NCBI RefSeq assembly: GCF_001913155.1
Contig: NZ_CP018760.1
Coordinates: forward strand, 806,001-870,000
Source of the DNA: Maribacter hydrothermalis
GTDB taxonomy: Bacteria; Bacteroidota; Bacteroidia; Flavobacteriales; Flavobacteriaceae
Direction of reading: 5' to 3'
DNA: 64,000 bases
A program made the position numbers and the translations under genes. This document shows positions 12,722 to 59,567 of this stretch, in pieces. Below the pieces are notes generated by a model that saw only the letters and a program-made list of their open reading frames with translations, ran no database searches and had not been told where the DNA came from. The first letter of the stretch is position 1; each line of letters opens with the position of its first letter.

Positions 12722-12722
12722 T

Positions 12723-12752
12723 ATTGCAGTACTTTAGATCTGCAATTATTTT
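12723..12752 (+). terminator. Weak terminator-like hairpin after ftsH
   Basis: ATTGCAG (12723-12729) pairs with CTGCAAT (12740-12746) and is followed by TATTTT. The 7-bp stem is short, so termination may be partial and the downstream genes could still be read from upstream. Confidence 0.4.
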
Positions 12753-12762
12753 AAAATTATAG

Positions 12763-13374: not shown

Positions 13375-13375
13375 T

Positions 13376-15084: not shown

Positions 15085-15091
15085 CAAAATT

Positions 15092-17054: not shown

Positions 17055-17085
17055 AATGCTCCCTTAAAGAAACAGAATTATGGCG

Positions 17086-17135
17086 TTAAATTAACAAATC
17101 TTAATCTTTCATTAACTGCATTAACCTTTCATTAA
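17086..17135. promoter_or_regulatory. Phased TTAA boxes, candidate RprY-like operator
   Basis: TTAA occurs at 17086, 17091, 17101, 17112, 17121 and 17132. The last four form an exact-distance direct repeat: TTAATCTTTCATTAA (17101-17115) and TTAACCTTTCATTAA (17121-17135), 20 bp apart and differing at one base. Spacing of ~10-11 bp puts the boxes on one helix face, as OmpR-family dimers require. The site lies between the kinase start and the divergent outer-membrane gene. That this regulator binds it is inferred. Confidence 0.45.
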
Positions 17136-17179
17136 TCTTTATTGATATATGCTTAGTTATCACCTTTACTAGATTTCTA

Positions 17180-17187
17180 TAATTTTG
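17180..17187 (+). promoter_or_regulatory. Candidate -7 box for the outer-membrane gene leader
   Basis: TAATTTTG matches TAnnTTTG. It lies 118 bp before the ATG at 17305, so the transcript would have a long leader containing the hairpin at 17244-17280. Confidence 0.5.
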
Positions 17188-17243
17188 CGGTAGTTGAGTA
17201 ATTTATTTTAATTGGAAACTATGCATTTGCATTTTTTTCAGAG

Positions 17244-17280
17244 TGGTCAATCCTTTGAAATGTAGGATTGACCATTTTTT
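17244..17280 (+). terminator. Intrinsic terminator in the leader of the outer-membrane gene
   Basis: TGGTCAATCCT (17244-17254) pairs perfectly with AGGATTGACCA (17264-17274) around a 9-base loop and is followed by six T. It stands between two divergent genes, so no annotated upstream gene ends here. It could be an attenuator for the gene starting at 17305 or the 3' end of a ~90-nt small RNA starting near 17190. Confidence 0.7.
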
Positions 17281-17304
17281 ATCAATAGCCAAAAACCGAC
17301 CATC

Positions 17305-40396: not shown

Positions 40397-43300
40397 ATGA
40401 CCAAAAAATTAACCGCAGTTATTTTCTGCATGCTATTTTGTTTATTTAGTACTTTTTTAAGGGCCCAATGTGAGAATGACAATGGTGGTTTTGAAGACGG
40501 CACTAATAATTATGTATTTCAATCTGGTTCATTGGTAGATACTAATCCTGCTAATGCTTTAGCTGGTACTTCATCAGCTTCCTTACCAACTACAGGGGCT
40601 TTAGTGGCAACTTCAAGCTACGTCATAAATCCAGGCGATGTTCTACATTTTAGCCTTTACGAAAAAACATTAGGAAACACAGGAGACATAGAAATTGCTA
40701 TAGCCTATTTTAACGGTGGCTCCAATTTACAAGGCGTTGATAATTTCTTAATTGCGGCAGATGGTCTTAATAATTACAAACAAAGCAATTATACCTCAAC
40801 AGCTCCTGCAGGCACAGCGTTTTTTCAAGTTCAAATAGTGAACAATACTGATGGCACGGTTTTTCTTGACAACCTTTGTTTAGGTTTTGTTACAGAAATT
40901 TGTGGTAATGGCATTGATGATGATGGTGATGGTTCAATTGATGAATACTGTTATAATATTTCTGATGCTAGCGCTACGGAAGGTGGCAATATGACTTTTA
41001 CCTTAACAACAACAACGCCTTTATTTTTTACAAGTAGAACCTTTAACCTAACATACGTAAATTTAAGTACTACAAATGCAGATTTTACAGGCCCAACAAC
41101 AGTAACCATTCCACCACTAGCAACTTCTGTAAACTTTACAGTAGTTGCGGAAGATGATGATTGGGTAGAAACTACTCAGCAGCAATTTGCAGTATACTTT
41201 TCAAGAAATACAAACGATGTAAATTTTGGAGATAGACAAGGTATTGGTACAATTATAGATACCGATGTTGCTCATGTTATTGGTGGTAATTATGATATTA
41301 CCGAGGGTGGTACTATAGCTTACGGACTGTCTTTATCTACAGGCACAAACTCTGGAGGTAGACAATATGTTGGTATAGAAGATACATATACTGTAAATTT
41401 TGAAGTTCAAGACCACGCAGCTTCTGTGAGTGCAGCTATAGATGGGTCTGATTTTAATATATTTAATACCACTGTAACATTCCCTGCTGGGTCTATAGCT
41501 GGTAGTCAAGTTTTTATTGATGTACCTACTATGGATGATACCATTGTAGAACCATCTGAAGAGTTCCATGGTGTAAAATCTCAAAACGCTACAGAAGCTA
41601 CTAAATATGGATCCGGACCTTCTAGAGTAACTATCAATACAGAAAGATCATCATTAAGAATACATGATAACGATACGGCTATAATAAATTTAACAGATGC
41701 CAGTATATTAGAAAATAGTGGTAATACCGATATTTCATTTACTTTAATTGGTGATGTTCAAAATGCATTCAACATAGATTTTACAACGAATGACAACACC
41801 GCCATTTCTGCTTCTGATTACACAACAAAGTCTGGAACCATTGCATTTATAGGTACAGATGGCGAAAATTTCACTGAATCATTTACTATTCTAGATGATA
41901 CTGTTACTGAGCCACAGGAGAACTTTGTGATAACACCTGCGTATAACCCAGCAATTCTTTCTTTGGCAAACTATGTACCGCAACAAATTTCATTTTTACC
42001 TGCTTCTTCTACTATTACAATTAATGATGATGATTTAGATTCAGATAATGATGGGGTAAGGGATGCTGTAGATTTAGATGATGATAATGATGGTATTTTA
42101 GATTCAGAAGAGGCTGTAGAATGTATAGATGATGACTACCTGGCATGGGAGTTTAATTCTCCAATTGGTACAATACAGGTTGATTATGTTCAAAATCCGG
42201 CCATAACAAATTGGCTAATTTCTTCCGCTTCAGATATAATCGTAGGTAGTGGATTAACAGATGCCTCACCAGGAGCAGAATTACAGATTAATGATTTAGA
42301 AGGAAATAATTACCCTGAAGCCCTAGCCAACAACGATTACATTGAAATTAGTTTTACAACTGGTACTGATTTAACTTATCCGGTTATAGAGCGTATGGGC
42401 TTAAATTGGTTTCAAAATTCTGATGGAACCACTATTGGTAATGCCTATGATGCGGCTATTGCAATTTCTAAGGATAACTTTGTAACGTCTTCCCTACTAA
42501 ACTCAGATGTACGTATTAACTATCCAACGAACGGAGTTTCTGAATTTTTCGATTTAACCCAAAACGGGGTAAAATATTACTTAGAAGAAAGTACTACATA
42601 TACCGTACGTATCTATGCCTATAACCAACAAAGTGATGGCAATGTTGCCTATTCGGTATTTGATGATCTAACCTTAAGATTATCATCTTGCTTAGAACAA
42701 GATACTGATACTGACAACCTTCCTGATCATTTGGATGCTGATAGTGATGGTGACGGATGTAATGATGCCATTGAAGCCGGCCATACAGACCCTGATGGTG
42801 ACGGCTATTTAGGTAATTCCCCAATAGTCGTAGACAATGTAACTGGCCAAGTAACCGGTCAAGGAGGTTATACAGGTACTGATAGCAAAGTTACGAATGC
42901 AAATCAAACTGTTTCCGTAAATACGCAACCTATAGATCAAATTGCTAATATTGGAGACAATGTAACCTTTAATACTGCGATCACCGGTACCGCTTTAACA
43001 TACCAGTGGGAATTGAGTACTGATGATGGATCCTCATGGACACCCATTGCAGATAGCGGAATTTATTCAGGTGCTACTACTACCACACTTACGTTAACTG
43101 CCATTACTAGTACAGAACATTCTAATCAATATAGATTAATAGCAACAGATAGCGAGAATTTATGTACTCCAGATACAATTACAAATGAAGTAATTCTTTT
43201 TATAAAACCAGTTATTACTATTGCCGATGCAACTATTGCCGAAGGCAACAATCTTGACTTTATAGTTACTCTTTCGCATGCAGTAAATGAAGTGATAACA

Positions 43301-46300
43301 TTTGATTTATCGTATTCAAATATTACAACAACAGGTTTAGATTATACTTCTGTTGCTAATTTTTCGATACCTATTAACACAGTAAGTACAAGTTTGCTAG
43401 TACCCGCAATTGACGATGCTCTTATTGAAAACGATGAGACTTTTACATTGGGTATGACTAATGCTTCAACAAATGCTGGTAATATTACAGATACGGCAAG
43501 CGGTACAATTACAAATGTTAATACTCCATTGGCGGGCGAAGGTATATCTATTACAGACTTTTCAATTAATGAAAATGTCGGCACTGTAGATTTCTTAGTT
43601 ACCTACACCGGTCCTAATGTTCAAGATTCTTTTACAGTAGATTATGCCATTACAGATGCAACTACAACAGCTGGAACGGACTATAATGTAAATCTTACTG
43701 GTCAAGTTACTTTTCCTGCAGGTACAGTTAATGGCGACATACAACCTATACTTTTAGCTATTACCGATGATACGGTTATAGAAGGTAATGAAAGTTTAAA
43801 TATTCTTTTATCAAATAGTTCCAATAGTCAAATTGCTATTGCTGATGCCAATGCCACAGGTACGATCATTGATAATGATACTACCCCTACTACCGGTTTA
43901 TCTGTTTCTGATTTTAGTGTTAACGAGTCACTAGCCTCGGCAAACTTTGTAGTAACTTATAACGGTAGTAATGTAAAAAATGCATTTACGGCTGATTATA
44001 TCATTACAAATGGCACCGCAATTTCTGGGTCGGATTACACCGCTTTGTTAACGGGTCAAATTTCTTTTCCGGCCGGCACAACAAATGGTGCTACACAGTC
44101 TATTAATGTTATTATAATTGATGATCTTGTAATAGAAGGAAGTGAGAACATCAATTTTGAACTTACAAATATTTCTACTAGCCTATTAAATTTAGTTGAT
44201 GCGACTGCTATTGGAACAATACTAGATAATGATACAAAAACCACTACAACAGGTTTATCCGTAGCTGACCTTAACGTAAATGAAGCCGCAGGAAACAGCA
44301 ATTTTGTTATCACCTATAATGGTCCGGAAATTCAAAATGCATTCTCTGTAGATTATACGATTACAGATGTAACCACAGCTTCAGGTACAGATTATAGCGC
44401 AGTATCAACTGGAGTAATAAATTTCCCTGCGGGGACTATTAATGGTGACCAACAAACGGTAAGTGTAACTATTATTGAAGATTTGATTATTGAAAACAAT
44501 GAGACATTTAATTTTAACCTATCAAATCTTTCTACGACTTTAATAAACCTGGTAGATGCTAATGGCATTGGTACCATAACTGATAATGATATAAAAACAC
44601 CTACCACAGGCTTATCGACTTCAGATTTCTCAGTAGCCGAATCTGCAGGTAGTTCTAATTTTATAATTACCTATAATGGAAATACGGTACAAAATGGTTT
44701 TACCGTAGACTATACAATTTCAAATGGTACCGCTACTTCTGGAAAAGATTACAATGCAGTTTTAAATGGTCAAATTTTATTTCCGGCCGGTACAGCAAAC
44801 GGTGACCAACAATTAGTTGCAGTTACTATTTTAGAAGATACTTTTATTGAAGCAAATGAGGAACTGAACATACAACTATCAAATTTGTCAACTACATTAA
44901 TAAATATTGTTGATGCAAATGGCACAGGTACAATTACAGATAATGACAATACCCCAACAAGTGGAATTGATTTTCAAAATCTTACTGTTACCGTTGTAGA
45001 GGGTGATCCGGGTGATTCAGTTTCCGCAACCTTCGTTGTTGAATTTAAAGGTGATATTGATACTGGAGAATCTATACAAGTAGACTATTTTGTAAATAAT
45101 GGTACAGCTGCAAATGCTACAGATTTTACACCTAACCCTACCGTTCAAACCTTAACTTTTACGAATGTAAATAAATTAAGAAATATTGTTGTCCCTATTA
45201 TAAGTGACAATACTGTGGAGAATGAAGAAAACTATTTTGTAAACCTGATTGCTATTCGTTCTAATGTAAATATTGGATTATTGAATAATAGTGCTACTGG
45301 TATTATTACAGATGACGATGGTGGTGTACTGTCAGTCTCAGGGTTTAGTATTATTGAACAGACTAATGGTGCTAATTTTGATGTCATTTATCTAGGTGAT
45401 AGAGTTACAGGAGGTTTCACCGTTAATTACACCATTACCGATATATCTACCACTTCTAATGTAGATTACAATGTAACAGCCCCTACCGGTACTTTAACCT
45501 TTAGTGGTATAGATAACGAAATACGGTCTGTCGTAGTAAATGTTATTGGGGATAATTTTATTGAAAATAATGAAGATTTAAGAATAGTTATTTCTAACCC
45601 ATCTGTTAGTCAGGTGGCTATTTCGCCTACCGGTTCACAGGCAATAGGTACAATTGTTAACGATGATAATGGTAGTATTGCGGTGTCTGGTTTCTCTGTC
45701 AATGAGTACAACTCAACCGCTAATTTTAATTTTACCTATACTGGAAAACCTATTCAGGGTGGGTTTACGGTAAATTATCAAATTTCAAATGGCACAGCCA
45801 CATCGGGATCAGATTACACTGTTTCATCGCCAACAGGTACTTTAAGTTTTAGCGGGACTACTGGCCAAGTTGTTCAAGTACCAGTTAATATAGTACAAGA
45901 TGCCATTTTAGAAGGTAATGAAAACTTGAGTGCTACAATTACTCAAGTAACTCCTTCATTAATTTCAATAAGCAATGCAACTGCAACAGGTACCATAATA
46001 GATATTAATCACCAACCTAATGCTGTTGATGATGCATTTGTGGTATTTGGCACAACTGATATGCCCATTTTAGCAAACGATGATTATGGTTTTGATGGCC
46101 CTGCGGCGGTAAATCCATTACAAATTGTTGCTAGCCCAATAAACGGAACCGTTGTAATTAGAGATAATGGTACACCTAGTAATAGTACGGATGATTATTT
46201 TGAATATCAACCAAGTCCTTCTTTTAATGGAAATGATTCTTTTACCTACAGAATTACGGATTCCAATGGTTCTACAGATACAGCTGTAGTAAATATATAT

Positions 46301-49300
46301 GTTAATGATACAAATTTAAAAAAGGAGTTCGAAATTCGCTATCAAGGTAGTATTAATGGAGATTTCACCATGATTGCCAATAATGTTCTTTCTAGAACCG
46401 CTACTGGTAATTATAACGGTGAAGATGGCAATCACAATTTCAATAATAACGTTTTTGTTGATATAGATTCGGACCCAACCACATTCAACTCAACTAACGC
46501 AAACTTAGTAAATCCTGAGCCATCACTAAGTTGTTTAAATATTAAAAAAGCATATATCTATTGGGCTGCTGCAGACAAAGAATATGATGGTACTACTGGT
46601 GGTGGAGCAACGGAACCATCTTGGAACTATAACCAAATTAAGTTAATGTTGCCAGGACAATCTGCCTATACTACTATATCTGCCGATGAAGTAATTTATA
46701 GAGGTCGCAATGATCATTTCCAAAACGACCCATATGTATGTATTAAAGATATAACCGATGATATAAACGCACTTGCCTCTCCTTTTGGTTCGTATCAAGT
46801 AGGTAACGTAAAAGCAACAGAAAGAGATTTACGCTCTCATGGTATTGCAAATGTAACTGGCACATCTGGTGGTTGGCAAATTGTATTTGTATATGAAAAC
46901 GTGTCTTTAGACCCTAAAAACATTACACTTTACGATGGTTATGTACACACTTTTGCATCTAACGGTGCTGGTGAAACAGAATTTAATTTCAGTGGTTTTG
47001 AAACAATTCCGAATGGAAATGTAAATGCAGACGTTATGTTAGGCGCTTTAGAAGGTGACCGTGACTTATCTGGTGATCAATTATTGATTTATGATTCTAG
47101 CAACAACTGGTCTAAACTTTCAACAGCGTTAAGAGATGAAGATAACTTCTTCAATAGCCGAATTACTTTAGACGGACTAAATTATGTAAATAGAAATGCT
47201 GCAAGTACAAACACCTTAGGTTTTGATGCTACTGTATTTCCTTTAGACAATGTTGGAAATAGGTACATTGATAATGACCAAACATTTGCAAGATTTAAAA
47301 TTACTACTGACCAAGAATCATATGGTCTATATTTAATGGGAATGAGTGTTGATGTGTATCAACCAAGTTTAGGTGCATTAAGTTTAAATACCAATGCAAC
47401 TGGTCCTTTTAATGCAGGTGATATTATTCCATTAACACTTAATGTTACAAATACAGGAAACGACGATATTCAAAATTTAGAAATTTCCTCTATTTTACCT
47501 ATAGAAGCTGACTTTTCTGGCGTAGGTGTTTTACCAGCAGGCGTTACGCATTCTTATGACCCAACTACAAGGACATTAACCTTTAATGTACAGAACGGTT
47601 TCACTGATATGGGTGATAATTATGATCTCAATTTTGATATTGAGATACGTGAGCAGTGTTATTTCCTGGAAACGGCATGTACAGCTAGTTTTGAATTACA
47701 AGCAACGGCTACTTATAGCGGAGTAACAAATTCAAATCCTATTACTACAAATAGTTCATATACAACGGACTCTTGTGGTATAGGTTCACATGACCCTACA
47801 ATAATTGATGTACAGCAACCTGCCCAAGTAAATTGGTCAACAGCTCCAAATGCCTTAAACAGAACTGTATCTTGCGATAATATAACAGGCTATAATAATG
47901 CCAATACACTAGAGCCAGATACCGCTATTTGTGACTTTACTTTAGATAAAATTGCTGGGCCATTTGTACCATCGGGCTCATGCCCTACAGAAGGTACATT
48001 TACTAATACTTGGACTTTTACAGATGCTTGTGGTAGAGTAAGTTCAACATTTACCCAGGTAATTACTATAGAAGACAATACTGCTCCTACGTTCAATGAA
48101 TCTTTACCACAAGATTCGTACGCAGCACATAATAACATACCGGTAGCACCAGTATTATCTGCCAACGACAATTGCGATTCGAATGCCACAGTTAACTTTA
48201 ATGAATCTTATATTGGTGATAATAACAGTACTACTTACACCATCATAAGAACTTGGACTATTAATGACTGTGCAGGAAATAGCGCTAGTCATACTCAACA
48301 AATTTTCGTAAGTGAAAATGGTGATCCAATTGGACTTAAAATTTCTGATGTTTCAGTAAATGAAAATGCAGGAACGGCTACCTTACAAATTACGCATACC
48401 GGTTCTGTATCAGGTGGTTTCACAGTAAACTATACTACTTTAGATGATTCTGCTATTCAACCAGGAGATTATATTGCCCAGTCAAATTCCATTTCATTTG
48501 CAGGTACAAACAATGAAGTAAAGACGATTTCTTTTACAATCAATGACGATACTCTTATTGAAGTTACAGAGCAATTTTTTGCTCAATTATCTAATGGTAC
48601 GAACACGCCTCCTATTAATGACGACCAAGGAGTAATATCTATTACGGATAATGATAATATACCAGGAACTATAGGTGTTTCCTTCTCTGATAATAATATA
48701 ATAGTTACTGAAGGTATACATACTTTTGCACGCTTTACGGTTACTTTTACAGGAAACATTGCTCCTGGTCAAAACGTTACTGTAAACTATGCAACGACCA
48801 ATGGAACAGCTATTCAACCTAATGATTACACGTTATCTACAGGTACAATTACATTTAACAGTGCTACAAACAGTATTAATATAGATGTACCCATTATCGA
48901 TGACAACATCATTGAAGCTGCTGAAAATTTCACTTTAACACTTTCAAATATTCAGTCTAATTTGGGTGTTGGTTTTGTTGATCAACAACCAACCAATACT
49001 GCTAATGGTACTATAAATGATAATGATAATATCCCAGGTACAACTGGTATATCATTCCAAAATGATAATATCACGGTTAATGAAGCGGACGGTACGGCAA
49101 CAATAAATGTGCTATTAACCGGTAACGTTCAAGGCGGATTTACCCTTGACTATGCTACTGCCGACGATTCTGCAGTTCAACCTGGTGATTATACCACTAG
49201 TACTGGTCAGTTGACTTTCGCAGGTAACAATGGAGAAATACATCCTATAACAGTTGCTATTATAGATGATAATATTATTGAAGCTACGGAAAGACTATTC

Positions 49301-52300
49301 GTTAACCTTTCTAACCTTTCCACTACTTTGATTTCCATAAACGATAATCAGGGCAATATTAATATTACGGACAATGACAACATCCCTGGTACAACTGGTA
49401 TATCGTTCCAAAATGATAATATCACCGTTAATGAGGCGGACGGTACGGCAACAATAAATGTGCTATTAACCGGTAACGTTCAAGGTGGATTTACGCTTGA
49501 CTATGCTACTGCCGACGATTCTGCAGTTCAACCTGGTGATTACACCACTAGTACTGGTCAGTTGACTTTCGCAGGTAACAATGGAGAAATACAACCGATA
49601 ACAGTTGCTATTATTGATGATAATAGTATTGAGATTACCGAAAGACTATTCGTTAACCTTTCTAACCTTTCTACTACTTTGATCGCCATAAACGATAATC
49701 AGGGCAATATTAATATTACGGACAATGACAATATCCCTGGTACAACGGGTATATCATTCCAAAATGATAATATCACCGTTAATGAAGCGGACGGTACGGC
49801 AACAATAAATGTGCTATTAACTGGTAACGTTCAAGGTGGATTTACCCTTGACTATGCTACTGCCGACGATTCTGCAGTTCAACCAGGTGATTACACCACT
49901 AGTACTGGTCAGTTGACTTTCGCAGGTAACAATGGAGAAATACATCCAATAACTGTTGCTATTATTGACGATAATGTTATTGAAGCTACGGAAAGACTAT
50001 TCGTTAACCTTTCTAACCTTTCTACTACTTTGATCGCCATAAACGATAATCAGGGCAATATTAATATTACGGACAATGACAACATCCCTGGTACAACGGG
50101 TATATCATTCCAAAATGATAATATCACCGTTAATGAAGCGGACGGTACGGCAACAATAAATGTGCTATTAACTGGTAACGTTCAAGGTGGATTTACGCTT
50201 GACTATGCTACTGCCGACGATTCTGCAGTTCAACCAGGTGATTATACCACTAGTACTGGTCAGTTGACTTTCGCAGGTAACAATGGAGAAATACAACCGA
50301 TAACAGTTGCTATTATTGACGATAATGTTATTGAAGCTACGGAAAGACTATTCGTTAACCTTTCTAACCTTTCTACTACTTTGATCGCCATAAACGATAA
50401 TCAGGGCAATATTAATATTACGGACAATGACAATATCCCTGGTACAACGGGTATATCATTCCAAAATGATAATATCACCGTTAATGAAGCGGACGGTACG
50501 GCAACAATAAATGTGCTATTAACCGGTAACGTTCAAGGTGGATTTACGCTTGACTATGCTACTGCCGACGATTCTGCAGTTCAACCAGGTGATTACACCA
50601 CTAGTACTGGTCAGTTGACTTTCGCAGGTAACAATGGAGAAATACAACCGATAACAGTTGCTATTATTGACGATAATGTTATTGAAGCTACGGAAAGACT
50701 ATTTGTTAACCTTTCTAACCTTTCTACTACTTTGATTGCCATAAACGATAATCAGGGCAATATTAATATTACGGACAATGACAACATCCCTGGTACAACG
50801 GGTATATCATTCCAAAATGATAATATCACCGTTAATGAAGCGGACGGTACGGCAACAATAAATGTGCTATTAACTGGTAACGTTCAAGGTGGATTTACCC
50901 TTGACTATGCTACTGCCGACGATTCTGCAGTTCAACCAGGTGATTATACCACTAGTACTGGTCAGTTGACTTTCGCAGGTAACAATGGAGAAATACATCC
51001 AATAACTGTTGCTATTATTGATGATAGTTTATTAGAATCTACAGAGAATTTTTATGTAAACCTTTCTAATTTATCAACTTCATTAATTGCTATAAATGAT
51101 AACCAAGGAACTATTAACATTATTGACAACGATAGTGACCCATCTACTATTGGTGTCCAGTTCGATGTTACTTCAATTGATGTCAACGAAGATGCGGGTA
51201 CGGTTTCTCTTGATGTGGTGCTTAATGCACAAGTGCAAGATGAGTTTACCGTGGAATACTACACTGTTGATGGCACTACAATTGAAGGTAGTGACTATTC
51301 CGGGGTACCTCGTAACACCCAGACATTAACTTTTGGGGGTACCAACTCTAATACACAGACCATCGTAATTCCTATTATTGATGATACGCTTATTGAGTAC
51401 ACCGAGAACTTCCAAGTATTGCTTGAGAATATATCAACACCTTTGTTGGGTATTCTTGCTAATGATACCGCTACGGTGAACATCATTGATAACGATAGCG
51501 ACCCATCCACTTTAGGTGTTCAGTTCGATGTCACCTCTATCGATGTCAACGAAGATGCGGGTACGGTTTCTCTTGATGTGGTGCTTAATGCACAAGTGCA
51601 AGATGAGTTTACCGTGGAATACTATACTGTCGATGGTACTACCATTGAAGGTAATGATTATACCGGGGTACCTCGTAACACACAAACATTGACCTTTGGT
51701 GGTACCAACTCCAATACGCAGACCATCGTAATCCCTATTATTGATGATACGTTTATTGAGTACACCGAGAACTTCCAGGTTATTCTGGAGAACATCTCTA
51801 CACCGCTTGTAGGTATTCTTGCCAATGATACCGCTACGGTGAACATTATCGATAACGATAGCGACCCTTCTACTTTAGGGGTTCAGTTCGATGTTACCTC
51901 TATCGATGTCAACGAAGATGCGGGTACGGTTTCTCTTGATGTGGTGCTTAATGCACAAGTGCAAGATGAGTTTACCGTGGAATACTATTCCGTGGACGGT
52001 ACTGCCGTACAGCCCGGTGATTATACAGAGGCTATTCGTAACACACAAACATTGACCTTTGGTGGTACCAACTCCAATACGCAGACCATCGTAATCCCTA
52101 TTATTGATGATACGTTTATTGAGTACACCGAGAACTTCCAGGTTATTCTGGAAAATATCTCTACGCCGCTTGTAGGTATTCTTGCCAATGATACCGCTAC
52201 GGTGAACATCATCGATAACGATAGCGACCCTTCTACTTTAGGGGTTCAGTTCGATGTTACCTCTATCGATGTCAACGAAGATGCGGGTACGGTTTCTCTT

Positions 52301-55300
52301 GATGTGGTGCTTAATGCACAAGTGCAAGATGAGTTTACCGTGGAATACTATTCCGTGGACGGTACTGCCGTACAGCCCGGTGATTATACAGAGGCTATTC
52401 GTAACACCCAAACATTGACTTTTGGGGGTACCAACTCCAATACGCAGACCATCGTAATCCCTATTATTGATGATATCCTTATAGAGTACACCGAGAACTT
52501 CCAGGTTATATTGGAAAACATCTCTACACCGCTTGTAGGTATTCTTGCCAATGATACCGCTACGGTGAACATTATCGATAACGATAGCGACCCTTCTACT
52601 TTAGGTGTTCAGTTCGATGTTACCTCGATCGATGTCAACGAAGATGCGGGTACGGTTTCTCTTGATGTGGTGCTTAATGCCCAGGTACAAGATGAGTTTA
52701 CCGTGGAATACTATTCCGTGGACGGTACTGCCGTACAGCCCGGTGATTATACAGAGGTTATTCGTAACACCCAAACATTGACCTTTGGTGGTACCAACTC
52801 CAATACGCAGACCATCGTAATTCCGATTATTGATGATATCCTTATAGAGTACACCGAGAACTTCCAGGTTATTCTGGAAAATATCTCTACGCCGCTTGTA
52901 GGTATTCTTGCAAATGATACCGCTACGGTGAACATCATCGATAACGATAGCGACCCATCCACTTTAGGGGTTCAGTTCGATGTTACCTCGATCGATGTCA
53001 ACGAAGATGCGGGTACGGTTTCTCTTGATGTGGTGCTTAACGCCCAGGTACAAGATGAGTTTACCGTGGAATACTATTCCGTGGACGGTACAGCCGTACA
53101 GCCCGGTGATTATACAGAGGCTATTCGTAACACCCAGACATTGACCTTTGGTGGTACCAACTCCAATACGCAGACCATCGTAATCCCTATTATTGATGAC
53201 ACGCTTATTGAGTACACCGAGAACTTCCAGGTTATTCTGGAAAACATCTCTACGCCGCTTGTAGGTATTCTTGCAAATGATACCGCTACGGTGAACATCA
53301 TCGATAACGATAGCGACCCATCTACTTTAGGTGTTCAGTTCGATGTTACCTCTATCGATGTCAACGAAGATGCGGGTACGGTTTCTCTTGATGTGGTGCT
53401 TAACGCCCAGGTACAAGATGAGTTTACCGTGGAATACTATTCCGTGGACGGTACAGCCGTACAGCCCGGTGATTATACAGAGGCTATTCGTAACACCCAA
53501 ACATTGACCTTTGGTGGTACCAACTCCAATACGCAGACCATCGTAATTCCGATTATTGATGATATCCTTATAGAGTACACCGAGAACTTCCAGGTTATTC
53601 TGGAAAATATCTCTACGCCGCTTGTAGGTATTCTTGCCAATGATACCGCTACGGTGAACATTATCGATAACGATAGCGACCCATCCACTTTAGGTGTTCA
53701 GTTCGATGTTACCTCTATCGATGTCAACGAAGATGCGGGTACGGTTTCTCTTGATGTGGTGCTTAATGCACAAGTGCAAGATGAGTTTACCGTGGAATAC
53801 TATTCCGTGGACGGTACTGCCGTACAGCCCGGTGATTATACAGAGGCTATTCGTAACACCCAAACATTGACTTTTGGGGGTACCAACTCCAATACGCAGA
53901 CCATCGTAATCCCTATTATTGATGATATCCTTATAGAGTACACCGAGAACTTCCAGGTTATATTGGAAAACATCTCTACACCGCTTGTAGGTATTCTTGC
54001 CAATGATACCGCTACGGTGAACATTATCGATAACGATAGCGACCCATCTACTTTAGGTGTCCAGTTCGATGTTACCTCTATCGATGTCAACGAAGATGCG
54101 GGTACGGTTTCTCTTGATGTGGTGCTTAATGCACAAGTGCAAGATGAGTTTACCGTGGAATACTATTCCGTGGACGGTACAGCCGTACAGCCCGGTGATT
54201 ATACAGAGGCTATTCGTAACACCCAAACATTGACTTTTGGTGGTACCAACTCCAATACGCAGACCATCGTAATCCCTATTATTGATGATACGCTTATTGA
54301 GTACACCGAGAACTTCCAGGTTATTCTGGAAAACATCTCTACACCGCTTGTAGGTATTCTTGCTAATGATACCGCTACGGTGAACATTATCGATAACGAT
54401 AGCGACCCATCTACTTTAGGTGTCCAGTTCGATGTTACCTCTATCGATGTCAACGAAGATGCGGGTACGGTTTCTCTTGATGTGGTGCTTAACGCCCAGG
54501 TACAAGATGAGTTTACCGTGGAATACTATTCCGTGGACGGTACAGCCGTACAGCCCGGTGATTATACAGAGGCTATTCGTAACACCCAGACATTGACCTT
54601 TGGTGGTACCAACTCCAATACGCAGACCATCGTAATCCCTATTATTGATGACACGCTTATTGAGTACACCGAGAACTTCCAGGTTATTCTGGAAAACATC
54701 TCTACGCCGCTTGTAGGTATTCTTGCAAATGATACCGCTACGGTGAACATCATCGATAACGATAGCGACCCATCTACTTTAGGTGTTCAGTTCGATGTTA
54801 CCTCTATCGATGTCAACGAAGATGCGGGTACGGTTTCTCTTGATGTGGTGCTTAACGCCCAGGTACAAGATGAGTTTACCGTGGAATACTATTCCGTGGA
54901 CGGTACAGCCGTACAGCCCGGTGATTATACAGAGGCTATTCGTAACACCCAGACATTGACCTTTGGTGGTACCAACTCCAATACGCAGACCATCGTAATC
55001 CCTATTATTGATGATATAATCATAGAAAACACAGAAAATTTCAGGGTAATTCTTGAAAATATATCTTCACCATTAGTTGGTATCCTTGCTAATAATATTT
55101 CAACCGTGAATATCATAGATAACGACGGTAATGAAGGCTGGCCAACCGATGAAACAATTGAAGCTTGTGATACTATCCCTGATGCATTCGTAATTACAAC
55201 AAATAGTACTTGTGCTATTACTGTTGATTATGTGGAATTAATTGAAGGCCAAGATGATGAATGCGCAACAGAATTTACCATAACAAGAACTTGGACAATT

Positions 55301-56404
55301 ACAGATTGTGCTGGTAATGTACGTACACATTCACAGGTAATTACTATTGAAGATACCATAGCGCCTACATTCAATGAAACACTACCACAAAGTATGACAG
55401 TTGAATGTAACATGGTACCAGATGCAGCAGTCCTTACGGCATCTGATACATGTGATGCAAATGTTGTTGTTACGTTTGAAGAAACTACAACTAACAATGC
55501 CAATTGTGCTCTCGGGTATACGGTAACAAGAACTTGGAGTGTAAGTGATTGTGCTGGTAATACCGAAGAACATACACAAGTAATAACGATAGAACCTACT
55601 GGGCCAATTGTAAGTTCGCCTTTTGAAGAAGAAATTACCATTATATGTGGTGATGATATACCTGAGGTTCCGCAATTAGTATTTAGTGGTGGATGTGATA
55701 ATTATGATGTTGTTTTCAATGAAGAAATACAATCGGCTACTGATTCTGATGATTATATGATTATCAGAACATGGAATGTAACCGACTCTTGTAACAACAC
55801 CGCTTCTTTTGAACAAATAATCTTTGTTCTTCAGCCAAAATTAGAAGAAGTAACTATTAACATATGTATTGAAGAACAGGTTATTGACCTATTAAATTAC
55901 TTACCATCAGATTTTGACCGTAATGGTACATTTATGATTCTCGAAGGCGATGTTATTTTAGAAGAAAATTATTTCGACCCTATGAAGCATGAGCCTGGTG
56001 AATACAAAATAGCCTATAGCTCTATTGAAGGTACGTGTAAGTATTATGTAGACTTCACAATTATTGTAGATACAGAATGTGTACCATGTGGCAGAGGAGA
56101 AATTGTATTATCTAAAGCCGTAACCGCCAATGGTGATGGTGTAAATGATTACTTCGAAATTACTGGTGTAGAATATTGCACGTTTACTTTTGACATTATG
56201 ATCTTCAACCGTTGGGGAACTAAAGTCGCAGAGATAAAAGATTATCAAAATACCTGGGGTGGTGAAGCACCTGACGGATCATTTGGAAAATCGGGAGTAT
56301 TACCTACTGGTACGTACTACTATATCATTTCTGCTACAGATAAAGAAACAGGTAAAATTCTAGAACCTTTTAATGGATACATTTATTTAGGCACATCAGA
56401 ATAA
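40397..56404 (+). CDS. Giant Calx-beta repeat adhesin with T9SS type B C-terminal domain
   Basis: A 5335-residue exported protein, by far the largest here. The signal peptide is about 1-23 (ending FLRAQ). In order: a jelly-roll-like N-terminal domain (~25-165), three Calx-beta-like domains, thrombospondin type 3-like calcium repeats (~548-570 and ~768-810, DSDNDGVRD), an Ig-like domain (~835-905), about eight more Calx-beta domains, a cadherin-like linker (~1875-1970), a unique domain (~1975-2325, AYIYWAAADKEYDG), a DUF11-like domain, HYR-like modules, further Calx-beta domains, six 117-residue repeats (2879-3578), eleven 121-residue repeats (3579-4909), HYR-like modules (SDCAGN), and the type B sorting domain (~5235-5335; ANGDGVNDYFEI, FNRWGTKV, GTYYYII). 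DD/DND motifs suggest calcium binding. It is probably a surface adhesin; PorP/SprF follows. Confidence 0.93.
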   Translation: MTKKLTAVIFCMLFCLFSTFLRAQCENDNGGFEDGTNNYVFQSGSLVDTNPANALAGTSSASLPTTGALVATSSYVINPGDVLHFSLYEKTLGNTGDIEIAIAYFNGGSNLQGVDNFLIAADGLNNYKQSNYTSTAPAGTAFFQVQIVNNTDGTVFLDNLCLGFVTEICGNGIDDDGDGSIDEYCYNISDASATEGGNMTFTLTTTTPLFFTSRTFNLTYVNLSTTNADFTGPTTVTIPPLATSVNFTVVAEDDDWVETTQQQFAVYFSRNTNDVNFGDRQGIGTIIDTDVAHVIGGNYDITEGGTIAYGLSLSTGTNSGGRQYVGIEDTYTVNFEVQDHAASVSAAIDGSDFNIFNTTVTFPAGSIAGSQVFIDVPTMDDTIVEPSEEFHGVKSQNATEATKYGSGPSRVTINTERSSLRIHDNDTAIINLTDASILENSGNTDISFTLIGDVQNAFNIDFTTNDNTAISASDYTTKSGTIAFIGTDGENFTESFTILDDTVTEPQENFVITPAYNPAILSLANYVPQQISFLPASSTITINDDDLDSDNDGVRDAVDLDDDNDGILDSEEAVECIDDDYLAWEFNSPIGTIQVDYVQNPAITNWLISSASDIIVGSGLTDASPGAELQINDLEGNNYPEALANNDYIEISFTTGTDLTYPVIERMGLNWFQNSDGTTIGNAYDAAIAISKDNFVTSSLLNSDVRINYPTNGVSEFFDLTQNGVKYYLEESTTYTVRIYAYNQQSDGNVAYSVFDDLTLRLSSCLEQDTDTDNLPDHLDADSDGDGCNDAIEAGHTDPDGDGYLGNSPIVVDNVTGQVTGQGGYTGTDSKVTNANQTVSVNTQPIDQIANIGDNVTFNTAITGTALTYQWELSTDDGSSWTPIADSGIYSGATTTTLTLTAITSTEHSNQYRLIATDSENLCTPDTITNEVILFIKPVITIADATIAEGNNLDFIVTLSHAVNEVITFDLSYSNITTTGLDYTSVANFSIPINTVSTSLLVPAIDDALIENDETFTLGMTNASTNAGNITDTASGTITNVNTPLAGEGISITDFSINENVGTVDFLVTYTGPNVQDSFTVDYAITDATTTAGTDYNVNLTGQVTFPAGTVNGDIQPILLAITDDTVIEGNESLNILLSNSSNSQIAIADANATGTIIDNDTTPTTGLSVSDFSVNESLASANFVVTYNGSNVKNAFTADYIITNGTAISGSDYTALLTGQISFPAGTTNGATQSINVIIIDDLVIEGSENINFELTNISTSLLNLVDATAIGTILDNDTKTTTTGLSVADLNVNEAAGNSNFVITYNGPEIQNAFSVDYTITDVTTASGTDYSAVSTGVINFPAGTINGDQQTVSVTIIEDLIIENNETFNFNLSNLSTTLINLVDANGIGTITDNDIKTPTTGLSTSDFSVAESAGSSNFIITYNGNTVQNGFTVDYTISNGTATSGKDYNAVLNGQILFPAGTANGDQQLVAVTILEDTFIEANEELNIQLSNLSTTLINIVDANGTGTITDNDNTPTSGIDFQNLTVTVVEGDPGDSVSATFVVEFKGDIDTGESIQVDYFVNNGTAANATDFTPNPTVQTLTFTNVNKLRNIVVPIISDNTVENEENYFVNLIAIRSNVNIGLLNNSATGIITDDDGGVLSVSGFSIIEQTNGANFDVIYLGDRVTGGFTVNYTITDISTTSNVDYNVTAPTGTLTFSGIDNEIRSVVVNVIGDNFIENNEDLRIVISNPSVSQVAISPTGSQAIGTIVNDDNGSIAVSGFSVNEYNSTANFNFTYTGKPIQGGFTVNYQISNGTATSGSDYTVSSPTGTLSFSGTTGQVVQVPVNIVQDAILEGNENLSATITQVTPSLISISNATATGTIIDINHQPNAVDDAFVVFGTTDMPILANDDYGFDGPAAVNPLQIVASPINGTVVIRDNGTPSNSTDDYFEYQPSPSFNGNDSFTYRITDSNGSTDTAVVNIYVNDTNLKKEFEIRYQGSINGDFTMIANNVLSRTATGNYNGEDGNHNFNNNVFVDIDSDPTTFNSTNANLVNPEPSLSCLNIKKAYIYWAAADKEYDGTTGGGATEPSWNYNQIKLMLPGQSAYTTISADEVIYRGRNDHFQNDPYVCIKDITDDINALASPFGSYQVGNVKATERDLRSHGIANVTGTSGGWQIVFVYENVSLDPKNITLYDGYVHTFASNGAGETEFNFSGFETIPNGNVNADVMLGALEGDRDLSGDQLLIYDSSNNWSKLSTALRDEDNFFNSRITLDGLNYVNRNAASTNTLGFDATVFPLDNVGNRYIDNDQTFARFKITTDQESYGLYLMGMSVDVYQPSLGALSLNTNATGPFNAGDIIPLTLNVTNTGNDDIQNLEISSILPIEADFSGVGVLPAGVTHSYDPTTRTLTFNVQNGFTDMGDNYDLNFDIEIREQCYFLETACTASFELQATATYSGVTNSNPITTNSSYTTDSCGIGSHDPTIIDVQQPAQVNWSTAPNALNRTVSCDNITGYNNANTLEPDTAICDFTLDKIAGPFVPSGSCPTEGTFTNTWTFTDACGRVSSTFTQVITIEDNTAPTFNESLPQDSYAAHNNIPVAPVLSANDNCDSNATVNFNESYIGDNNSTTYTIIRTWTINDCAGNSASHTQQIFVSENGDPIGLKISDVSVNENAGTATLQITHTGSVSGGFTVNYTTLDDSAIQPGDYIAQSNSISFAGTNNEVKTISFTINDDTLIEVTEQFFAQLSNGTNTPPINDDQGVISITDNDNIPGTIGVSFSDNNIIVTEGIHTFARFTVTFTGNIAPGQNVTVNYATTNGTAIQPNDYTLSTGTITFNSATNSINIDVPIIDDNIIEAAENFTLTLSNIQSNLGVGFVDQQPTNTANGTINDNDNIPGTTGISFQNDNITVNEADGTATINVLLTGNVQGGFTLDYATADDSAVQPGDYTTSTGQLTFAGNNGEIHPITVAIIDDNIIEATERLFVNLSNLSTTLISINDNQGNINITDNDNIPGTTGISFQNDNITVNEADGTATINVLLTGNVQGGFTLDYATADDSAVQPGDYTTSTGQLTFAGNNGEIQPITVAIIDDNSIEITERLFVNLSNLSTTLIAINDNQGNINITDNDNIPGTTGISFQNDNITVNEADGTATINVLLTGNVQGGFTLDYATADDSAVQPGDYTTSTGQLTFAGNNGEIHPITVAIIDDNVIEATERLFVNLSNLSTTLIAINDNQGNINITDNDNIPGTTGISFQNDNITVNEADGTATINVLLTGNVQGGFTLDYATADDSAVQPGDYTTSTGQLTFAGNNGEIQPITVAIIDDNVIEATERLFVNLSNLSTTLIAINDNQGNINITDNDNIPGTTGISFQNDNITVNEADGTATINVLLTGNVQGGFTLDYATADDSAVQPGDYTTSTGQLTFAGNNGEIQPITVAIIDDNVIEATERLFVNLSNLSTTLIAINDNQGNINITDNDNIPGTTGISFQNDNITVNEADGTATINVLLTGNVQGGFTLDYATADDSAVQPGDYTTSTGQLTFAGNNGEIHPITVAIIDDSLLESTENFYVNLSNLSTSLIAINDNQGTINIIDNDSDPSTIGVQFDVTSIDVNEDAGTVSLDVVLNAQVQDEFTVEYYTVDGTTIEGSDYSGVPRNTQTLTFGGTNSNTQTIVIPIIDDTLIEYTENFQVLLENISTPLLGILANDTATVNIIDNDSDPSTLGVQFDVTSIDVNEDAGTVSLDVVLNAQVQDEFTVEYYTVDGTTIEGNDYTGVPRNTQTLTFGGTNSNTQTIVIPIIDDTFIEYTENFQVILENISTPLVGILANDTATVNIIDNDSDPSTLGVQFDVTSIDVNEDAGTVSLDVVLNAQVQDEFTVEYYSVDGTAVQPGDYTEAIRNTQTLTFGGTNSNTQTIVIPIIDDTFIEYTENFQVILENISTPLVGILANDTATVNIIDNDSDPSTLGVQFDVTSIDVNEDAGTVSLDVVLNAQVQDEFTVEYYSVDGTAVQPGDYTEAIRNTQTLTFGGTNSNTQTIVIPIIDDILIEYTENFQVILENISTPLVGILANDTATVNIIDNDSDPSTLGVQFDVTSIDVNEDAGTVSLDVVLNAQVQDEFTVEYYSVDGTAVQPGDYTEVIRNTQTLTFGGTNSNTQTIVIPIIDDILIEYTENFQVILENISTPLVGILANDTATVNIIDNDSDPSTLGVQFDVTSIDVNEDAGTVSLDVVLNAQVQDEFTVEYYSVDGTAVQPGDYTEAIRNTQTLTFGGTNSNTQTIVIPIIDDTLIEYTENFQVILENISTPLVGILANDTATVNIIDNDSDPSTLGVQFDVTSIDVNEDAGTVSLDVVLNAQVQDEFTVEYYSVDGTAVQPGDYTEAIRNTQTLTFGGTNSNTQTIVIPIIDDILIEYTENFQVILENISTPLVGILANDTATVNIIDNDSDPSTLGVQFDVTSIDVNEDAGTVSLDVVLNAQVQDEFTVEYYSVDGTAVQPGDYTEAIRNTQTLTFGGTNSNTQTIVIPIIDDILIEYTENFQVILENISTPLVGILANDTATVNIIDNDSDPSTLGVQFDVTSIDVNEDAGTVSLDVVLNAQVQDEFTVEYYSVDGTAVQPGDYTEAIRNTQTLTFGGTNSNTQTIVIPIIDDTLIEYTENFQVILENISTPLVGILANDTATVNIIDNDSDPSTLGVQFDVTSIDVNEDAGTVSLDVVLNAQVQDEFTVEYYSVDGTAVQPGDYTEAIRNTQTLTFGGTNSNTQTIVIPIIDDTLIEYTENFQVILENISTPLVGILANDTATVNIIDNDSDPSTLGVQFDVTSIDVNEDAGTVSLDVVLNAQVQDEFTVEYYSVDGTAVQPGDYTEAIRNTQTLTFGGTNSNTQTIVIPIIDDIIIENTENFRVILENISSPLVGILANNISTVNIIDNDGNEGWPTDETIEACDTIPDAFVITTNSTCAITVDYVELIEGQDDECATEFTITRTWTITDCAGNVRTHSQVITIEDTIAPTFNETLPQSMTVECNMVPDAAVLTASDTCDANVVVTFEETTTNNANCALGYTVTRTWSVSDCAGNTEEHTQVITIEPTGPIVSSPFEEEITIICGDDIPEVPQLVFSGGCDNYDVVFNEEIQSATDSDDYMIIRTWNVTDSCNNTASFEQIIFVLQPKLEEVTINICIEEQVIDLLNYLPSDFDRNGTFMILEGDVILEENYFDPMKHEPGEYKIAYSSIEGTCKYYVDFTIIVDTECVPCGRGEIVLSKAVTANGDGVNDYFEITGVEYCTFTFDIMIFNRWGTKVAEIKDYQNTWGGEAPDGSFGKSGVLPTGTYYYIISATDKETGKILEPFNGYIYLGTSE
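49031..51130 (+). repeat. Six tandem 351-bp Calx-beta repeats (type A)
   Basis: Near-identical units start at 49031, 49382, 49733, 50084, 50435 and 50786 (exact 351-bp period, 117 residues each, beginning IPGTTGISFQNDN). Differences are mostly single bases; copy 2 has a variant DDNSIEITER segment and copy 6 diverges at its 3' part (DDSLLESTENFYV). The identity at DNA level implies recent expansion or gene conversion. Confidence 0.95.
51131..55123 (+). repeat. Eleven tandem 363-bp Calx-beta repeats (type B)
   Basis: Units start at 51131, 51494, 51857, 52220, 52583, 52946, 53309, 53672, 54035, 54398 and 54761 (exact 363-bp period, 121 residues, beginning DSDPSTLGVQFDV). The first two copies carry a different middle (TTIEGSDYSG or TTIEGNDYTG) from the rest (TAVQPGDYTE). 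The last copy diverges at its end. Alternative synonymous haplotypes are shuffled among the internal copies. The array looks GC-richer than its surroundings. Confidence 0.95.
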
Positions 56405-56455: not shown

Positions 56456-56700
56456 TTTTAGAAGCAAAGTTTAATTAGTGGAATTCTATTCTACAATACA
56501 TTTTAAAATAAACTACTAAATAAATTAAGTACATCTGATAAAAGCATCAAGTAATCGAAAATAAAGAAGTAAAACCAATAATTAAAGGCCATAACCGTTA
56601 TAAAAACGCATAACCAAATAAGAAATTAATTTGTTGATAAAATGGTTAACCTACTTATTTCTAAACATATAGCAACAAAATGCTAAACCCTAAACAGACC

Positions 56701-57603
56701 ATGAAAAAAGCTAATCTATTATTAGCCGTACTACTTTTTGCAGGGGCCTTTGCAAGTGCGCAACAGCTACCTCAGTTTACGCAATATATGTATAACACGA
56801 TTTCTGTAAACCCTGCCTATGCTGGCAGTAGAGAAACGTTAAATGCAACAATTTTGCATAGAAATCAGTGGGCCGGATTAGAAGGTAATCCAAGAACTAG
56901 TACGTTCTCCGTACATTCTCCTTTAAAAAATGAAAAAATAGGATTAGGAGTTTCATATATTAACGACCGTTTGGGTTTTGAAAGTACAAATTATTTTTAT
57001 GGAGATTTCTCCTATACCGTACCTGTAAGTGCAGAAGTTAATATGCGATTTGGCCTAAAGGGAGGGGTTACCAGTTACAGTCTGGAAAATCCAGATCCTA
57101 ATGATCAATTTTTCAATGCAAATTTTAATAGTTTAAATCCTAATTTCGGCGCAGGTTTTTATATTGGTTCCAATAGGTGGTATGCAGGTATTTCATCTCC
57201 AAGAATACTAAATACAGATTTAAATGAAGGTGAGTTCCAAGCATTAGAAAGAAATAGTTATTATGCTATTGGAGGACTAGTTTTAGACTTATCAGCGACA
57301 ACCATTTTTAAACCTACTATTATCACCAAGTTCACAAACGGAGCTCCTGCCACCTATGATTTCACTATAAACTTTTTGTTCAATGAAAAATTTTGGATAG
57401 GCACTTCTTACCGGGTTAACGATGCCTCAAATTTTGGAGCAATGATGGATTATCAAGTTTCTAAGGATATTAGAATTGGATATGCTTATGATTTACCAAC
57501 TTCTACCGTTAGACCATATACAGGAGGAACACATGAAATAATATTAATCTATGAGCTTGCTAAAAAGGTTTTAGGACCAATTAAATCTCCTAGATATTTC
57601 TAA
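56701..57603 (+). CDS. PorP/SprF-family T9SS outer-membrane protein
   Basis: A 300-residue outer-membrane beta-barrel protein of the PorP/SprF family, which supports secretion or surface attachment of partner proteins with type B T9SS domains. The signal peptide ends FASAQQ (about residue 21). The family signature QFTQYMYNTISVNPAYAGSR follows immediately, then LHRNQWAGLEGNP and SVHSPLKNEKIGLGVSYIND. The ATG at 56701 gives a normal signal peptide (MKKANLLLAVLLFAG); an in-frame ATG at 56680 adds seven residues. It lies 297 bp after the giant adhesin gene, its likely client, and 17 bp before the PorE-like gene. Confidence 0.93.
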   Translation: MKKANLLLAVLLFAGAFASAQQLPQFTQYMYNTISVNPAYAGSRETLNATILHRNQWAGLEGNPRTSTFSVHSPLKNEKIGLGVSYINDRLGFESTNYFYGDFSYTVPVSAEVNMRFGLKGGVTSYSLENPDPNDQFFNANFNSLNPNFGAGFYIGSNRWYAGISSPRILNTDLNEGEFQALERNSYYAIGGLVLDLSATTIFKPTIITKFTNGAPATYDFTINFLFNEKFWIGTSYRVNDASNFGAMMDYQVSKDIRIGYAYDLPTSTVRPYTGGTHEIILIYELAKKVLGPIKSPRYF

Positions 57604-57620: not shown

Positions 57621-59567
57621 ATGAAAAATTTTAAAAATTCTGTGCTATTGATTCTACTTTTTCTAGTAGGCCAAGTAACTATGGCTCAATTTGCATCACA
57701 AAAAAAAGCGGATTATTATTTCAGTAAATTTTCATATTCTTTAGCAATCCCAGAATATGAAAGAATGGTAAAATCAGATGTTAATGCTGAATACGCCCAT
57801 CAACAATTAGCAGAATGTTTTTTGCTTATACGTGAATACAAAAAATCAATTCCGCATTTTAAGGAAGTTATCAATAATGCAACCTTACCTACAGATTACT
57901 ATTTTAAATATGCAATGGCATTATATGCTAACGGAGATTTAGAAGAATCAGAAGAGTGGTTAAAAAAGTATAAAAAGTATAATAAAAACGATTCCAGAGT
58001 AAAACGTTTTTTAAAGGACGGTAACTTAGCATCTGTTGTTTTTAATAGTAGACAAAGATATGAGGTTGAACCTGTATCGTTCAATTCTTCTGATAGTGAT
58101 TTTGGCACGTTTAGATTTATGGGTAACATCTACTTTGGCTCATCTAGAAGAGAAGTTGTAGATGGAGATAGTTATGGTTGGAATAATGAACCATGGTTAG
58201 ATATTTTTGCCGTGCAGGAAGATAATCCCTTGTCTATTCCTAAACGTATAAATGGAAATATAAATACCAAGTTTCATGAAAGCTCTGTAGCATTTTCTAC
58301 GGACTATAAAAATGACACGATAATGTATTTCACACGAAATAACTTCTATGACAAAAAAGAAGGGTATGGTGTGCTTAATGAAATAAATCTTAAAATATAT
58401 TCAGCTAAACTTGTTGATGGCGAATGGAAAGAAAATAGTAATCTAAGAATAAATAGCGATTACTACTCTACGGGTCATCCTTCTGTAAATCTTGCAAGAA
58501 CACGTATCTATTTCACTTCTGATCGACCAGGAGGTTACGGTGGTACAGATATATATTATGCTGAAATACATGAAAGAGGTGGTATTCAAACACCCGTAAA
58601 TGCTGGTCCTGTAGTTAACACTGAAGGGAATGAAATGTTTCCTTTCATTAATGAAGAAGGAAAATTATTCTTCAGCTCTGATGGTCATGTTGGTTTTGGT
58701 CAATTAGATGTATTCTCGACTATTTCTGACGAAGATGGTAAAGTCATAGATATTATAAACTTAGGAACACCAATTAATAGTTCTAGTGATGATTTTGCTT
58801 ATTATGGCCTACCAAGTGGTCTTGATGGATATGTAAGCTCTAACCGCGAAGGTGGCATGGGTAGTGATGATATTTATAAATTTAAATTTACGCCCTCTTT
58901 AGATGTTGAAGGTTACGTTGTAGATGGTGTAAACAATAAAATGCTAGATAGCGTAAACATAAAATTGTTTGACCAAATTACCAACACCTTGGTTGCACAA
59001 ACAATGACCGATGAACATGGTTATTATAGATTTCCTGTTAATAGAAAAACAACTTACATGATTGAGGCGGTTAGAAAAACGCACCCTCATAAGAATATTT
59101 ATTTCAATACAAGTACTACAGCCAAATCACAAAAAATATTACGACAAGATATTGTTTTAGAACCTGTTCTTGACCTCAAGCTTTTAGCAGGATTAAATCA
59201 AATTTATTTCGATTTTAACAAAAGTAACATAAGGCCTGATGCTGCCAAAGAACTAGATAAAGTAATTAAGGTTATGAACGTTACTTATCCAGATATGATA
59301 ATAAAACTAGAAGCACATACCGACCCTGTGGGTAGTCATGAGTACAACGACAACCTGTCAGAAGGAAGAGCTAAATCTACTTATGAATACCTTATTGAAA
59401 ACGGGGTATCAAAAGATAGAATTGTTTCTTATAAAGGTTATGGAAAACGAATGCCAATTAACAAATGTACTAGTAAATTAGACTGTACTCCAGAAGATTT
59501 AGAACTAAATAGAAGAACTGAATTTCCAATTCTACAAATTAAAAAAGGAATTTCAACATCAAAATAA
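57621..59567 (+). CDS. PorE-like TPR/propeller/OmpA envelope protein
   Basis: A 648-residue exported protein with the domain order described for PorE of the T9SS. The signal peptide is about 1-22 (ending VTMAQ). TPR-like repeats occupy about 25-135 (YSLAIPEYERMVKSD), then a TolB/PD40-like beta-propeller (~140-420, with IYFTSDRPGGYGGTDIYYAE), then a carboxypeptidase-regulatory-like domain (~432-510, VEGYVVDGVNNKMLDS), then an OmpA C-terminal domain (~530-645, IYFDFNKSNIRPDAA, LSEGRAKSTYEYL, NRRTEFPI) that binds peptidoglycan. It follows the PorP/SprF gene by 17 bp; the trio adhesin-PorP-PorE is typical of Bacteroidota. It may link the machinery to the cell wall. Confidence 0.9.
   Translation: MKNFKNSVLLILLFLVGQVTMAQFASQKKADYYFSKFSYSLAIPEYERMVKSDVNAEYAHQQLAECFLLIREYKKSIPHFKEVINNATLPTDYYFKYAMALYANGDLEESEEWLKKYKKYNKNDSRVKRFLKDGNLASVVFNSRQRYEVEPVSFNSSDSDFGTFRFMGNIYFGSSRREVVDGDSYGWNNEPWLDIFAVQEDNPLSIPKRINGNINTKFHESSVAFSTDYKNDTIMYFTRNNFYDKKEGYGVLNEINLKIYSAKLVDGEWKENSNLRINSDYYSTGHPSVNLARTRIYFTSDRPGGYGGTDIYYAEIHERGGIQTPVNAGPVVNTEGNEMFPFINEEGKLFFSSDGHVGFGQLDVFSTISDEDGKVIDIINLGTPINSSSDDFAYYGLPSGLDGYVSSNREGGMGSDDIYKFKFTPSLDVEGYVVDGVNNKMLDSVNIKLFDQITNTLVAQTMTDEHGYYRFPVNRKTTYMIEAVRKTHPHKNIYFNTSTTAKSQKILRQDIVLEPVLDLKLLAGLNQIYFDFNKSNIRPDAAKELDKVIKVMNVTYPDMIIKLEAHTDPVGSHEYNDNLSEGRAKSTYEYLIENGVSKDRIVSYKGYGKRMPINKCTSKLDCTPEDLELNRRTEFPILQIKKGISTSK

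Follow-up and report, generated by a model that had tools for sequence, protein, structure and literature searches.

In this study we analysed a stretch of 64,000 nucleotides of Maribacter hydrothermalis (contig NZ_CP018760.1, positions 806,001 to 870,000; hereafter the window), in which an open frame on the forward strand (40397..56404) encodes a giant, predicted type IX-secreted surface protein of 5,335 residues carrying seventeen tandem Calx-beta units. With a probability that we put at roughly 70%, this array is the anchor-proximal, recombining stalk of a static surface protein. Through the type-B domain at its C-terminus, the protein would remain attached to a PorP/SprF-like barrel of its own, which a neighbouring PorE-like protein probably braces to the peptidoglycan, so that the protein would be static rather than gliding, and the seventeen beta-sandwich units of calcium-binding type would serve as a spacer, keeping the N-terminal 2,875 residues at a distance from the cell. 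Homologous recombination of misaligned units would add, remove or overwrite units, and since each unit consists of whole codons (117 or 121), the frame would stay intact through such gains and losses. In this lineage, the first group of units (A) appears to have been homogenised to one type and the second (B) to have been expanded to eleven.

Structure of the array and of the giant protein

The array was delimited by Tandem Repeats Finder and in-register alignment, and consists of six 351-bp Calx-beta units of 117 codons each (A, 49022..51127, forward strand) followed by eleven 363-bp units of 121 codons each (B, 51116..55108, forward strand), where the overlap of the two is the final 12 bases of the A register and arises from the choice of cut. 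Tandem Repeats Finder places the first array at 49022-51042 (period 351, 5.8 copies, 96% matches, score 3690) and the second at 51116-55125 (period 363, 11.0 copies, 94% matches, score 6647), and as its reporting threshold is a score of 50, the array lies far beyond chance. All seventeen units (49022-55108) share one open frame and make up 38% of the protein, which bears out the six 351-bp and eleven 363-bp units given in a preliminary description of this DNA. The same description called the units almost identical; this holds for the inner units, with DNA identities of 94.3-98.6% among A1-A5 and 94.5-98.9% among B3-B10, but not for the edge units A6, B1, B2 and B11, where the divergence is concentrated and the identity goes down to about 80%. 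Taking every pair, the identity is 87.2-98.6% in A and 79.6-98.9% (mean 92.0%) in B. Such divergence of the edge units is as expected if exchange is commonest within the array interior. Moreover, most of the variable columns are held by third codon positions (22 of 27 in A1-A5 and 24 of 28 in B3-B10), so that uniformity is higher in the protein than in the DNA, and neighbouring units within each array are 90-100% identical in protein. To call the array exceptional, as was done at first, is an overstatement, since the same locus in the related genome G017 carries 8.1 copies of a 309-bp unit (98%) and 8.6 copies of a 360-bp unit (96%), and the database protein P0014 too has eight adjacent domains of identical protein sequence. 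The G017 locus (L131), from a single-contig relative, has its arrays at 142-2629, 6298-9411 and 13408-16067, all within 16 kb, with units of 309, 360 and 426 bp and 85-98% matches.

Pfam matches to Calx-beta (PF03160) cover 8 stretches in the first half of the protein and 19 in the second; Big_9 and HYR_4C domains are present too, and the C-terminus matches CHU_C, a type IX sorting domain. A hidden Markov model derived from the units themselves finds 30 domains, of which 11 are close to the N-terminus, 2 precede the array and the remainder are the 6 A and 11 B units. The array units match solved calcium-binding (CBD) domains of the Na/Ca exchanger, and the E, DY, DD, E and DND positions are invariant across 23 aligned three-unit rows; these acidic positions are presumably the residues that bind calcium in the exchanger. 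The stalk role proposed in the preliminary description fits this domain content, Calx-beta domains in a protein secreted by the type IX system, and both the rigid rod and the adhesive function are putative. Ahead of the array there is a conserved non-repeat domain (residues 1985-2345; 46349..47431, forward strand), which is supported by a 15-sequence alignment and a structure model with a predicted local distance difference test score (pLDDT) of 80.1, and has only weak matches of jelly-roll type. It is a possible functional part of the protein, lying on the opposite side of the array from the anchor.

Recombination and age of the units

Exchange among the B units has left a clear footprint. 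Among the 24 informative sites of B3-B10, 128 of the 276 site pairs are incompatible, and neighbouring sites are incompatible less often than in 5,000 shuffles of the site order (mean 0.242 versus 0.464, p=0.0002), from which it follows that segments shorter than one unit were exchanged among these units. Long exact repeats are found as well: one of 509 bp at 52991..53499 has its second copy at 54443-54951, and one of 350 bp at 52244..52593 has its second copy at 53696-54045, both pairs on the forward strand and 1,452 bp or four units apart, while further exact repeats of 227 and 197 bp are spaced by one unit. The longest of them suggest a recent four-unit (1,452-bp) shift. The expectation that such an array would recombine is therefore supported for the past of the B units, and the number of units may vary within the species too.

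The mean synonymous divergence (dS) between inner units is 0.139 for A1-A5 and 0.159 for B3-B10, with nonsynonymous divergence (dN) of 0.011 and 0.005. For a non-repeat part (565-763 aligned residues), dS to six related species is 1.4-2.3, which is near saturation. Since the array values of 0.14-0.16 are so far below those to the relatives, the present units spread after the lineage had split from those species; the spread is lineage-specific, but not all very recent. In the unit trees, the A units of the window form one clade (support 0.977), and so do its B units (0.995).

Arrays in related genomes

The gene next to the array gene encodes a PorP/SprF-family protein, referred to here as the carrier, of which an orthologue (75% identity or more) is found in 20 of the 36 genomes of the genus, this genome counted; its closest named relatives are in Maribacter, the best being M. 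litoralis with 92% in protein. We compared the locus with the stretches of the other 19 carrier-bearing genomes. Ten A and four B units are common to six relatives (L117, L124, L125, L126, L128 and L130), whose mean identity within the array is 74.0-75.5% for A and 79.0-84.9% for B. Three others (L121, L127 and L129), with unit classes called on their relatives P0016 and P0009, have different unit types and end in two B-like units; L118, L119, L120, L122, L132 and L133 are short pieces cut by a contig end; and L123, L131, L134 and L135 show other architectures. Among the database proteins, P0003 has 6 A and 3 B units and P0006, from a metagenome-assembled genome (MAG), has 10 A and 2 B units. 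The size of the array thus differs between species, with 6 A and 11 B units here against 10 A and 4 B or 6 A and 3 B in relatives, so that size variation, predicted for strains or even cells, is seen here between species. In L134 (14740-17403) the carrier is kept and the gene upstream of it, of 888 residues, is without any Calx-beta unit; in L135 the array gene is split across two open frames (8657-11725 and 12218-17314), which reflects a genuine interruption of the gene or else a misassembly of the repeats.

At closer range, four pairs from different records, 97.8-99.5% identical in a non-repeat part, have the same number of units in three cases, and the fourth pair, the MAG protein P0006 and L117, differs by two B units, perhaps through assembly collapse. 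The arrays of all these pairs are much less uniform than that of the window. When the units of the six relatives are put into a tree, A4, A5, A8, A10 and B4 cluster by position and A3 and A7 nearly do, A1, A2, A6 and A9 do not, and B1-B3 cluster by species in three of the six. This grouping suggests that the relatives have conserved individual units in part of the array and that B1-B3 turn over, while in the window both arrays have been homogenised. The best match of the window A units is A2 of the relatives; as the margins are small (0-4.6 points, with three ties in 36), an origin from A2 is treated as a lead. In the gene tree the window is sister to P0003 plus the group with 10 A and 4 B units (0.92, 0.83).

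Predicted anchoring of the protein

The giant protein ends in a type-B C-terminal sorting domain (56111..56350, forward strand; G000:C1:862111-862350), which is matched by TIGR04131 with 45.3 bits and also by CHU_C, and the giant protein itself scores 38.8 bits against that model, where the curated cut-off for type-B C-terminal domains (CTDs) of the type IX secretion system is 35. Downstream on the same strand follow the carrier (56680..57603), assigned by domain searches (TIGR03519, 244.2 bits against a cut-off of 90.55) and without a Cys-X-Cys tail, and a PorE-like protein with an OmpA domain (57621..59567), which reaches 322 bits with the NCBIfam PorE model, below its cut-off of 600, and 399 bits with the CHU_0125-family model, whose cut-off is 620. 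The sorting domain and the carrier gene predict that the protein sits at the surface and is anchored by one end.

As far as the cited accounts go, the Cys-X-Cys tail of SprF is required for gliding and for stable attachment to the track, where it bonds to the track protein GldK (PMC12635249), and PorP-PorE-like complexes are postulated as a further anchor of nonmobile type-B proteins (PMC9143113). Cys-X-Cys is found in none of the 20 orthologues of the window carrier, and a PorE-like gene adjoins the carrier at 18 of the 20 loci. The same genome also encodes SprA and a separate SprB-repeat giant of 5,976 residues, and the carrier neighbouring the latter is found in 35 of the 36 genomes of the genus. 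At the 30 loci, out of these 35 genomes, that the motif and neighbour counts cover, every orthologue (30 of 30) has Cys-X-Cys and none (0 of 30) has a PorE-like neighbour within the searched flanks, which extend to at most 1.5 kb. Within the genome of the window, 13 PorP/SprF genes were found; four unfused carriers directly adjoin a PorE-like gene and none of them has Cys-X-Cys, and the two carriers that do have it (1967877 and 2650654) are without a PorE-like neighbour. Another PorE-like gene adjoins a longer PorP-containing frame at 483516, which the motif counts exclude. Because its carrier is without Cys-X-Cys and has a PorE-like neighbour, the array protein is predicted to belong to the static class. 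It counts as accessory within the genus, where almost all genomes have the SprB-linked carrier.

Several other genes at or near such carriers deserve mention. In three relatives (L126, 9540-17261; L128, 9211-17301; L121, 12204-17282), a second giant gene of 1,693-2,697 residues with a CTD-like end stands between the array gene and the carrier, which suggests that one carrier may serve two surface proteins. Outside the window, at G000:C1:755340-760124 (L139), another type-B CTD gene of 1,595 residues contains near-identical arrays of its own (294 bp x 4.5, 92%; 687 bp x 2.8, 98%) and a pair of PorP and PorE-like genes. Just upstream of the giant gene, on the reverse strand (38192-39535), lies a gene for a flavin adenine dinucleotide-dependent monooxygenase that weakly resembles VioC (228 bits against a cut-off of 760).

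Assembly breakage at the array

The array was also said to make short-read assemblies unreliable, and the contig ends, the recurring contig starts and one broken record show this warning to be well founded. The genome collection contains at least 590 related loci; among the best 80 of these, the contig ends no more than 3.5 kb upstream of the carrier gene in 41 and no more than 3.5 kb downstream of it in 2, the one-sided cases being 40 upstream and 1 downstream (sign test p=3.8e-11). All 41 upstream-broken contigs begin within an open frame directed at the carrier, although this is trivial for L043 with its 49 bases. The first 150 bases of the contig recur within the same partial gene (85% or more identity over 60 bases or more) in 15 of 40 cases, against 0 of 40 for a control stretch 250-400 bases upstream of the carrier. 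Moreover, the protein-cluster entry P0002 (3,033 residues, longest contig 97.8 kb, 4 members), which may come from a draft assembly of this strain, is identical to the beginning of the giant protein and terminates at window position 49495, within A2.

Weighing of the explanations

A number of results weigh against the array being the recombining stalk of a static protein. The recombination test gives no signal for A1-A5 (10 sites, p=0.82), and a lag-4 test of the B units is not significant (p=0.096). A mean inner dS of about 0.15 indicates that homogenisation has not been continuous, which argues against very frequent turnover. The structure model of three B units is poor (pLDDT 54, predicted template modelling score 0.30), which leaves the rod putative, domain searches of the giant protein recognised no adhesive family, and at the carrier loci L133 and L134 no PorE-like gene lies in the roughly 9-10 kb that follow. 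Some of these points suit a slower history, in which the array was amplified once and then kept as a spacer by purifying selection and occasional conversion, with the unit number equal across strains. Inner dS with very low dN, the 10 A and 4 B units common to six related species and the equal numbers in three of four independent close pairs all agree with it, and we take it seriously as a rather unlikely account; against it speak the exact repeats of 509 and 350 bp and the shuffling of haplotypes among the B units, and the A units of the stable relatives are far less uniform (74-75.5% mean) and so predict little for the array of the window.

A different doubt concerns the counts of 6 and 11, which rest on one complete contig and might partly be an artefact of its assembly, by collapse or expansion. 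Exact repeats of up to 509 bp, the break in A2 of a second record of the same protein and the frequent ends of related contigs at the array give some ground for this. It is nevertheless decidedly improbable in view of the single 4.27-Mb contig, 99.99% complete, as is presumably usual for long-read assemblies, and of the many distinct silent differences between units, by which only the exact repeats four units apart risk short-read confusion over 300 bp. Finally, the array could be the stalk of a gliding adhesin of the SprB kind, carried on the motility track, with the stalk length tuning surface contact. The type-B sorting domain, the adjacent PorP/SprF-family carrier and the giant size are as in SprB, and with SprA and an SprB-repeat giant in its genome the bacterium probably glides. 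We consider this the most doubtful of the accounts, since the carrier is without Cys-X-Cys in all its orthologues and mostly has a PorE-like neighbour, another gene fits SprB better, and the carrier orthologue is restricted to 20 of the 36 genomes against 35 for the SprB-linked type. A recombining stalk on a statically held protein thus remains our preferred explanation.

Comparison with known systems

Among the known type-B proteins, PG1035 of Porphyromonas gingivalis with PorE and PorP shares with the locus a type-B CTD protein, a PorP-like barrel and a PorE-like OmpA-domain protein, whose genes are side by side here; the portions of the source used here do not present PG1035 as a giant repeat stalk, and the PorE-like protein of the window scores below the curated PorE cut-off (PMC9143113). 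With SprB-SprF of Flavobacterium johnsoniae, as described in the excerpts cited, it has in common a giant repetitive type-B CTD protein and an adjacent PorP/SprF-family carrier gene, and differs in having no SprB repeat among its Pfam matches, a carrier without Cys-X-Cys and an adjacent PorE-like gene (PMC9143113, PMC12635249, PMC9870892). It differs also in that the genome has a separate SprB-repeat giant. The RTX adhesins MpIBP and SiiE, which we take to be secreted by the type I route, offer another parallel. In their extender arrays, to judge from the source in part, calcium-associated beta-sandwich repeats likewise lengthen a surface protein, but the repeat families and the secretion route are other ones (PMC7493085).

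The closest known kind seems to be the periscope protein, such as Sgo_0707, SasG, Rib and CdrA. According to the sections cited, these are likewise single-chain surface proteins with a stalk of long, near-identical, in-frame repeats of a folded domain, the number of which differs among relatives, with recombination proposed as the cause (PMC8201768, PMC9704523); the units here, of 117 and 121 residues with neighbours 90-100% identical in protein, are of that kind. The array protein differs from these in its Calx-beta units and in the predicted route of export (type IX, type B) and mode of anchoring (PorP-type); the variation seen here is between species only, and it has no known ligand-binding head. 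The locus therefore appears to work like a periscope protein but stops short of a proven member, since variation is seen between species only and the rod and the head are putative. Even so, it offers a natural comparison, an array rebuilt here against an equal number of units in six relatives, and because roughly half of the related public assemblies examined have this gene family at the end of a contig, adhesin counts from such genomes call for caution. On a wider view, it is possible, if at somewhat less than even odds, that Flavobacteriaceae have a largely unseen class of static, wall-braced, type IX-exported periscope proteins, whose Calx-beta stalks are rebuilt by recombination. The rebuilding would start from single units and recur in separate lineages, so that cell surfaces would vary in reach, and the class would be under-counted because about half of the related copies lie at contig ends in public assemblies. 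The published accounts, in the parts cited, concern sortase-anchored proteins of Gram-positive and autotransporter-type proteins of Gram-negative bacteria (PMC8201768, PMC9704523), and the locus would transfer the periscope logic to the type IX secretion system of a marine member of the Bacteroidota.

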